Below the pieces are notes generated by a model. That model was not told the DNA's origin. It was given only the letters and a program-made list of their open reading frames with translations, and searched no databases. From Natrinema sp. SYSU A 869 (GTDB lineage: Archaea > Halobacteriota > Halobacteria > Halobacteriales > Natrialbaceae): 64,000 bases of DNA. The DNA lies in contig NZ_CP082249.1 of the NCBI RefSeq assembly GCF_019879105.1, positions 2,108,001 to 2,172,000 on the forward strand, in the 5' to 3' direction. Positions within the stretch are counted from its first letter, which is position 1. Each line of letters starts with the position of its first letter. Made by a program: the position numbers and the translations under genes. This document shows positions 18,878 through 19,230 of this stretch, one piece after another.

Positions 18878-19230
18878 CATCTACGTGTTACTCCGGTCGA
18901 TATCTAGCATGCAGTGGCGCGCGCTGTGAGTCGGTCGAACGACAGTGAGGACGGCCACTGATACTGCGTGAGGTCCTCGCGAGTTTGCGAGCGAAGTCGT
19001 TCGAGACGGCGAAGCCATCTCGTGATGCGAAACATATTCAATTTTTCAGCAGCTTGTCAGAGCCCGCTCTGACAGTGGATGAGCGAGGGAAGAATGACTG
19101 AGCGGTAGCGCGGGACCGACGGTCCCGCGAACCATCCAAACGGGTGCTTCGCACCCGTGAGGAGAAATCGGCTGGGAGAGAGTGGTCCCCCCTTGTTGCC
19201 AGCATCAGCAGAACGCGTGCTTGCTTATCT
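18878..19230 (+). repeat. structured repeat element, copy A (convergent intergenic region)
   Basis: This fills the RecJ-PHP gap. It begins with or just before GCATGCAGTGGCGCGCGCTG (18907-18926) and ends near TTGTTGCC (19193-19200), with weaker similarity to about 19230. Hairpins: 18976-18991; 19002-19022 (GAA loop, one mismatch); 19055-19074 (TGTCAGAGC/GCTCTGACA); 19109-19129 (CGCGGGACC-GAC-GGTCCCGCG); 19140-19158 (ACGGGTGC-TTC-GCACCCGT). The reverse strand of 62223-62530 is homologous along its length, with matching stems that differ by paired changes. No transposase and no credible ORF. Boundaries are approximate. Confidence 0.8.

Follow-up and report, generated by a model that had tools for sequence, protein, structure and literature searches.

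A dispersed structured element of Halobacteria, possibly an RNA acting near transcript 3′ ends

Introduction

What is the folded repeat that fills the gap between two convergent genes of Natrinema sp. SYSU A 869, and why do both arms of its stems change together when a second copy is set beside it? The first-pass annotation of the window (the whole 64,000-nucleotide stretch of DNA analysed) inferred selection on folding, as for an RNA or a folded mobile DNA. It would have been refuted by a lack of further copies in related genomes, by stem changes that were not compensatory, or by derivation from a known insertion sequence (IS). Covariance models had been suggested as a check, and those we built for the modules and the core recovered a whole family of copies. 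Our best explanation, to which we give a probability of about 0.45, is an undescribed dispersed structured-RNA element of Halobacteria that acts near transcript 3′ ends, its transcription and function being unproven.

Results

The two copies in the window

Copies A and B lie where they were first reported and align over most of their length, and, as had also been noted, no transposase is adjacent to either. The covariance models delimit copy A to 18896-19214 (+) and copy B to 62240-62503 (−), with weaker conserved sequence reaching about 20–45 bases further on both sides of each. Each copy folds better than all 100 of its dinucleotide shuffles (z = −2.6). Gene calls around the elements are computational predictions.

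18878..19230, +: copy A, whole element with weakly conserved outer sequence, in a convergent-gene gap
17321-18859, +: gene to the left of copy A, DHH-family phosphoesterase
19245-20009, −: gene to the right of copy A, PHP-domain gene
18896..18973, +: copy A 5′ module (model R2, 76.7 bits)
18918-18923, +: copy A P1 5′ strand, CGCGCG
18965-18970, +: copy A P1 3′ strand, TGCGTG, followed by GAGG; the variable stem P2 is in the same 5′ module
18974..19077, +: copy A optional hairpin cassettes, missing in minimal copies
within 18974..19077, +: copy A cassette with CTCGC/GCGAG-type stem
19003-19021, +: copy A cassette, GAGACGG..CCATCTC hairpin
19056-19073, +: copy A cassette, GTCAGAGC..GCTCTGAC hairpin
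19078..19105, +: copy A P3 5′ side, closing strand and then a partial GA ladder
19078-19080, +: copy A P3 closing strand GAT, pairing with ATC at 19167-19169
19109..19162, +: copy A cassette within P3
19110-19117 / 19121-19128, +: copy A P3-cassette stem GCGGGACC/GGTCCCGC
19140-19147 / 19151-19158, +: copy A P3-cassette stem ACGGGTGC/GCACCCGT
19096..19214, +: copy A 3′ module (model R1, 120.8 bits), containing conserved AAATCGGCT-GGGAG
19183-19186 / 19198-19201, +: copy A 3′ hairpin, TGGT..TGCCA
62223..62530, −: copy B, whole element, in a divergent-gene gap
61691-62131, −: Usp gene beside copy B
62667-63998, +: DEAD-box helicase gene beside copy B
62428..62503, −: copy B 5′ module (R2, 63.0 bits)
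62240..62358, −: copy B 3′ module (R1, 132.5 bits), with conserved AATCGGTTGGGGAGGGCGTGGC and hairpin GTGGC..GCCAC
62343-62337 / 62333-62327, −: copy B stem CGGAACC/GGTTCCG
62314-62307 / 62303-62296, −: copy B stem ACGGGCGC/GCGCCCGT

The compensatory differences first seen between the copies are real: ACGGGTGC/GCACCCGT in A stands against ACGGGCGC/GCGCCCGT in B, and CGCGGGACC/GGTCCCGCG against CGGAACC/GGTTCCG. A paired change reported at GAGGTC was found as C-G to T-A in the CTCGC/GCGAG stem that follows that motif. The four shared hairpins also exist, but they are largely optional cassettes and not the common core of about 150 nt.

A hairpin module of copy A, GCGAGCGAAG...GAGACGGCGAAGCCATCTCGTGATG (18987-19031), also stands alone elsewhere in the genome (L017, L059–L062, L064, L069 and L071, one of them on the smaller contig C2), so that the cassettes resemble separate repeats, each a unit of its own, that have been inserted into the core. 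The module TGATGCGAAA..ATTTTTCAGCAGC (19020-19054), a GAAAAAT/ATTTTTC hairpin, is A/T-rich inside an otherwise GC-rich element and recurs in another species' copy at locus A (L114).

Architecture of the core

The element is modular, with a core of about 150 nt common to the copies and a total size of roughly 150–400 bases; one minimal copy is at C3:3382558-3382713. The core is built of P1–P4 plus optional hairpin cassettes. P1 has the form CGCGCG...YGYGCG, and P2 is a stem that differs strongly between copies yet remains paired. P3, closed by GAY...RUC, is a ladder in which two Watson-Crick pairs alternate with one tandem G·A step (GAY-GA-GY-GA-RC ... GY-GA-RC-GA-RUC). The tandem G·A is retained in 57/61, 58/61 and 36/46 copies, against an expectation of 0.6% from base composition. 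Kink-turns and related RNA motifs likewise place tandem G·A of the sheared type between Watson-Crick pairs; unlike a kink-turn, P3 has no three-base bulge, and its G·A step repeats every four bases.

Conserved single strands accompany these stems, namely the core sequence RTCGGYTGGGGAGGRYGTGG and, after P3, GGYTGGGGAGGRYGTGG. In Natrinema copies the latter is followed by a GTGGC/GCCAC hairpin, GATAGCAGRAC and a T/C-rich tail. Cassettes are found in P3 and in the stretch from P1 to P3, and they switch on and off between species at orthologous sites. A possible GGAG/CTCC pseudoknot, counted in the core alignment, showed no double-side changes. Other genera carry a second conserved hairpin 3′ of the core, starting with GACTGAAAGGGGC and ending with GGGGCTTTC (L375–L384, L242, L267, L281, L292, L315 and L316); at the locus of one genus, g27, it is 88% conserved compared with 82% for the core.

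Copy number and distribution

The repeat had been described as present twice, which is far too few: BLASTN with copy A gave 43 matches in this genome, the 3′ module model R1 gave 50, and the core model R3 gave 90, or about 75 distinct loci after merging, as long copies yield two R3 matches each. All R1 and R3 matches fell on the main-chromosome contig C3 (3.90 of 5.67 Mb) and none on the other two contigs of about 0.9 Mb, C1 and C2; the sole off-chromosome BLASTN match was a short hairpin-only one on C2. The chance that 75 uniformly placed loci would all fall on C3 is about 6 × 10−13. Chromosome-only placement also held in two near-complete relatives, N. zhouii (G021; 75/75) and G010 (31/31).

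Further copies do exist in related genomes. With R3 the core was detected in 135 of the 242 Halobacteria genomes sampled, representing 42 of 73 genera, per-genome copy numbers in this class-wide scan being lower bounds (at least the number found). In a phylum-wide sample, the 13 positive genomes all belonged to the genus or the order of the genome studied here, and R3 found nothing in the remaining euryarchaeal genomes of that sample. A 20-base core pattern was present in contigs of Haladaptatus, Halorussus, Halogranum, Halobium, Halococcus, Halolamina, Natronococcus, Natronorubrum and Halopiger, among others. A viral or plasmid origin was rejected: the phage collection held no match to this pattern, three viral-contig matches look like chance coding sequence, and plasmid records gave a single match, a 987-kb Natrinema thermotolerans replicon.

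Constraint on the fold

Covariation was assessed in a core set of 61 copies from Natrinema and related Natrialbaceae genera, in which 94.6% of pair cells were standard pairs with the structure held fixed. Both-side changes occurred in 14 of 30 core pairs, and there were 208 double-change cells against a shuffled mean of 78.2 and against 5–59 when the partner was slid by 1–3 columns. An unbiased all-against-all column scan placed the highest mutual information exactly at the nested stems, P2 and P3. The cassette-stem pairs 19–29, 41–67 and 50–58 each had both-side changes in 13 of 27 copies. Kinship among sequences inflates double-change counts, and the slid controls and the strand, tandem G·A and single-copy evidence weigh more. 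The stem changes are thus compensatory, and selection on folding is backed well beyond the two copies from which it was first inferred.

Core pairs included 132 G·U but only 11 A·C (70 and 10 after leaving out the two commonest columns, both in P1), and two P1 positions were split about 50:50 between G·U and G-C. Such an excess implies selection on one folded strand, as in RNA, whereas a strand-neutral or double-stranded constraint would give similar numbers of the two, so the asymmetry speaks against it. Folded single-stranded DNA could favour G·T too and is not fully excluded, although the half-G·U P1 positions fit RNA better.

Genus g27 has only one or two copies per genome, and six of its species share one in the gap from cbiF (Pfam TP_methylase) to cbiG (Pfam CbiG). 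The core of this copy is 82% identical across the six, compared with 64–65% for adjacent intergenic DNA and 70% for fourfold-degenerate sites of cbiG, and five pairs show both-side changes among these single-copy orthologues. No paralogue is there to homogenise the locus, so the constraint is not explained by conversion. A cbi-operon riboswitch was rejected, the element being antisense to both genes.

Comparison of sequences thus shows that the folded element is real, occurs across the class, is specific to one strand and is under selection. Between the two natures first offered for it, RNA is favoured by the G·U excess and the single-copy constraint, while mobility as single-stranded DNA is not excluded.

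Genomic context

With a codon-bias gene caller, 132 of 133 copies in this genome and the N. zhouii loci were intergenic, the exception being a weak 3′-only match. Convergent gene pairs bounded 55 of 120 element-bearing gaps compared with 25 of 154 gaps without an element. Single copies were sense to the nearer (convergent) or upstream (codirectional) gene in 55 cases and antisense in 25 (P = 0.001), a modest 2:1 bias, and 15 of 95 single complete copies lay in divergent-gene gaps. Copy pairs within about 200 bp were all tail-to-tail in this genome and the N. zhouii loci, and the class-wide listing shows further such pairs.

Over the first 10 bases 3′ of the fold T+C was 71%, with T up to 37%. 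A T4 run followed within 40 bases in only 11% of copies and a TATA-like box preceded only 2%; neither an own promoter nor a classical U-tract terminator is supported. In Haloferax volcanii, intergenic terminators consist of T-stretches, in some cases with hairpins before them, and transcripts end at C (PMC7237163). The T/C-rich tract after the fold, near gene 3′ ends, resembles these, which makes a role at transcript ends plausible without showing it. Unlike those terminators, the element is far larger, is conserved in sequence and fold, is sense in a ratio of only 2:1 and has few T4 runs.

Turnover at sites

Nearly all of the 29 genus members examined retain the genes that flank locus A, but the element was detected in only 11; the closest relative keeps only a remnant (GTGGATGAGCGAGCG). 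G010 and G027 form a filled/empty pair there, in which no target duplication was seen (one pair, boundaries not exact). About 20 of 48 copies of this genome have a same-site copy in N. zhouii, so many copies are old and staying in place.

Identity of the 5′ core was 66% between orthologous and 65% between non-orthologous copies, with about 70% at fourfold sites of neighbouring genes. In 8 of 20 cases the 60 bases upstream ranked the syntenic partner first among 70, whereas the 5′ core usually failed to do so (median rank near the middle). At locus A in two species, the left flank was 84% and the 3′ core 98% identical, compared with 65% for P2, which was still paired, and 37% for the cassettes. 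Simple vertical descent of all interior sequence is not supported, as the most similar interiors are not those at orthologous sites. Either the variable stems evolve very fast under a pairing constraint or the copies exchange interiors; the alignments leave this unresolved.

Comparison with described families

Rfam held no family reaching its gathering score and nothing plausible at E up to 5, and the loci from other genera gave no Rfam match except to a tRNA near the element. Searches of open-access text turned up neither the motif sequences nor any description of an intergenic structured repeat in haloarchaea, only unrelated primer matches. As far as can be told, the element is undescribed, matching none of the RNA or transposon families tested. 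Haloarchaeal sotRNAs and TnpB omega-RNAs (RF02656, RF02657) are likewise structured and intergenic or in a mobile context, but unlike them the element has no Rfam match and no adjoining TnpB at any copy.

Discussion

A core of about 150 nt is kept by base pairing, on one strand, at intergenic main-chromosome sites, and cassettes are gained and lost inside it. In the reading given above as the best explanation, the fold would act as RNA once the end of a neighbouring transcript runs through the element, which would then be a 3′-UTR or transcript-end module shaping termination, 3′-end processing or stability. Its effect would probably come through a protein bound to the G·A ladder and the G-rich strand, although no binding partner has been shown. 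Copies would spread slowly and rarely, in a way not shown, and then be inherited in place; in multi-copy genomes they appear to exchange interior stems. Against a 3′-UTR role stand the g27 copy antisense to the cbi genes and the copies in divergent gaps, neither of which is explained, and against the transcript-end reading stand the lack of a TATA-like box, the few T4 runs and the patchy presence at locus A. If a 3′-end role is true, RNA 3′ ends of the folded strand should cluster within about 30 nt after GATAGCAGGAC.

That so strongly covarying an element should occur in over half of the Halobacteria genomes sampled, reach dozens of copies in Natrialbaceae and still lack an Rfam family would amount to a major omission from the annotation of haloarchaeal non-coding sequence. 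It offers a test bed for how archaeal transcripts end or are stabilised in GC-rich genomes with few T-tracts, and for how dispersed repeats with a fold are maintained in the absence of a resident transposase, while the tandem G·A ladder predicts a specific, assayable RNA structure or protein partner.

The main and strongest rival, unlikely in our judgement but a serious contender, is a REPIN/PATE-like non-autonomous mobile element, mobilised in trans by a Y1/IS200-type transposase, whose single-stranded DNA fold is kept for transposition. One-strand folding fits such transposition too, and the copies are dispersed, chromosomal, extragenic and patchy, with inverted doublets as in REPINs (PMC3116915). 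Bacterial REP, BIME and REPIN sequences share dispersal, extragenic placement, folding, inverted doublets and long persistence with the element, but a REPIN/REP unit is a palindrome of 20–60 bp in hundreds of copies, compared with a core of about 150 nt at about 75 loci, and the element differs from all of them in being multi-stem, covarying, strand-asymmetric and archaeal. No cognate single-copy RAYT (the Y1 transposase of REPINs) was found on the chromosome of this genome: five of the seven Y1_Tnp matches lie on C1, one on C2 and one on C3, the last equal to a C1 copy in both score and length.

PATEs of Haloquadratum walsbyi are relatives of IS605-type transposons that carry no transposase, and their near-terminal palindromes are related to such a transposon. 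Like the element, they are haloarchaeal, transposase-free and heterogeneous. PATEs make no target duplication (PMC3119063) and have no terminal inverted repeat; for the element, no duplication was seen in the filled/empty pair at locus A (a single pair with inexact boundaries), and no inverted repeat of the kind expected of a MITE was obvious between the conserved outer sequences, the exact ends being unknown. Unlike PATEs, it shows no detected relation to resident IS200/IS605 ends, its RNA-like fold is conserved class-wide, and its interior stems are interchangeable with compensation. A parent IS200/IS605 element was sought and rejected: neither module lay within 1.5 kb of any of this genome's 9 TnpB and 7 Y1 loci, and no parent IS was found. 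The TnpB and Y1 transposase genes are concentrated on C1 and C2, where R1 and R3 have no match, opposite to the element's chromosome-only placement. Mobility also sits poorly with the single-copy locus under selection, the about 20 of 48 copies at orthologous sites, the absence from this genome of any two copies nearly identical along their length, and the P1 positions with about equal G·U and G-C, which fit RNA better than DNA. A lost or distant transposase cannot be excluded.

A more speculative proposal, which we hold to be improbable, is a fixed-site chromosomal RNA element, with a host role at transcript ends, that swaps interior stems and cassettes through copying anchored on the conserved core. 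Equally conjectural is its corollary, that whole stems get replaced yet still pair, as in a family of RNAs that are faithful to their sites while exchanging their content.

A multi-copy family of free small RNAs with their own promoters, acting in trans or with a protein, would account for discrete units with 5′ and 3′ parts and a conserved single-stranded core, and for the loci that are antisense or between divergent genes. It is quite improbable: no promoter-like conserved sequence was seen upstream in 112 copies, and orientation is biased relative to genes.

We also consider very unlikely a decaying old repeat without function, seemingly conserved only through conversion between copies, even though orthologous 5′ cores are no closer than non-orthologous ones and interiors differ at the same site. 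Constraint and compensation persist in g27 without a conversion partner, and conversion alone does not explain compensatory pairs. A structured double-stranded DNA site specific to the main chromosome (a cruciform, or a nucleoid- or replication-related site) would suit the exclusive placement in this genome, N. zhouii and G010 and the large inverted repeats made by tail-to-tail doublets, but it should treat G·T and A·C alike, and the 132:11 asymmetry leaves it barely credible.

Two minor observations concern the make-up of individual loci. In the tail-to-tail doublets of L037 and L038 (1680-1850), the 3′ ends (GCCACGATAGCAGGAC) point towards each other and form a near-perfect long inverted repeat. 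L014, L081 and L163 carry a tandemly duplicated two-hairpin cassette (GCGGGACC..GGTCCCGC and then ACGGGC..GCCCGT), and these duplicated cassettes are 92–93% alike between loci, which suggests recent cassette spread.
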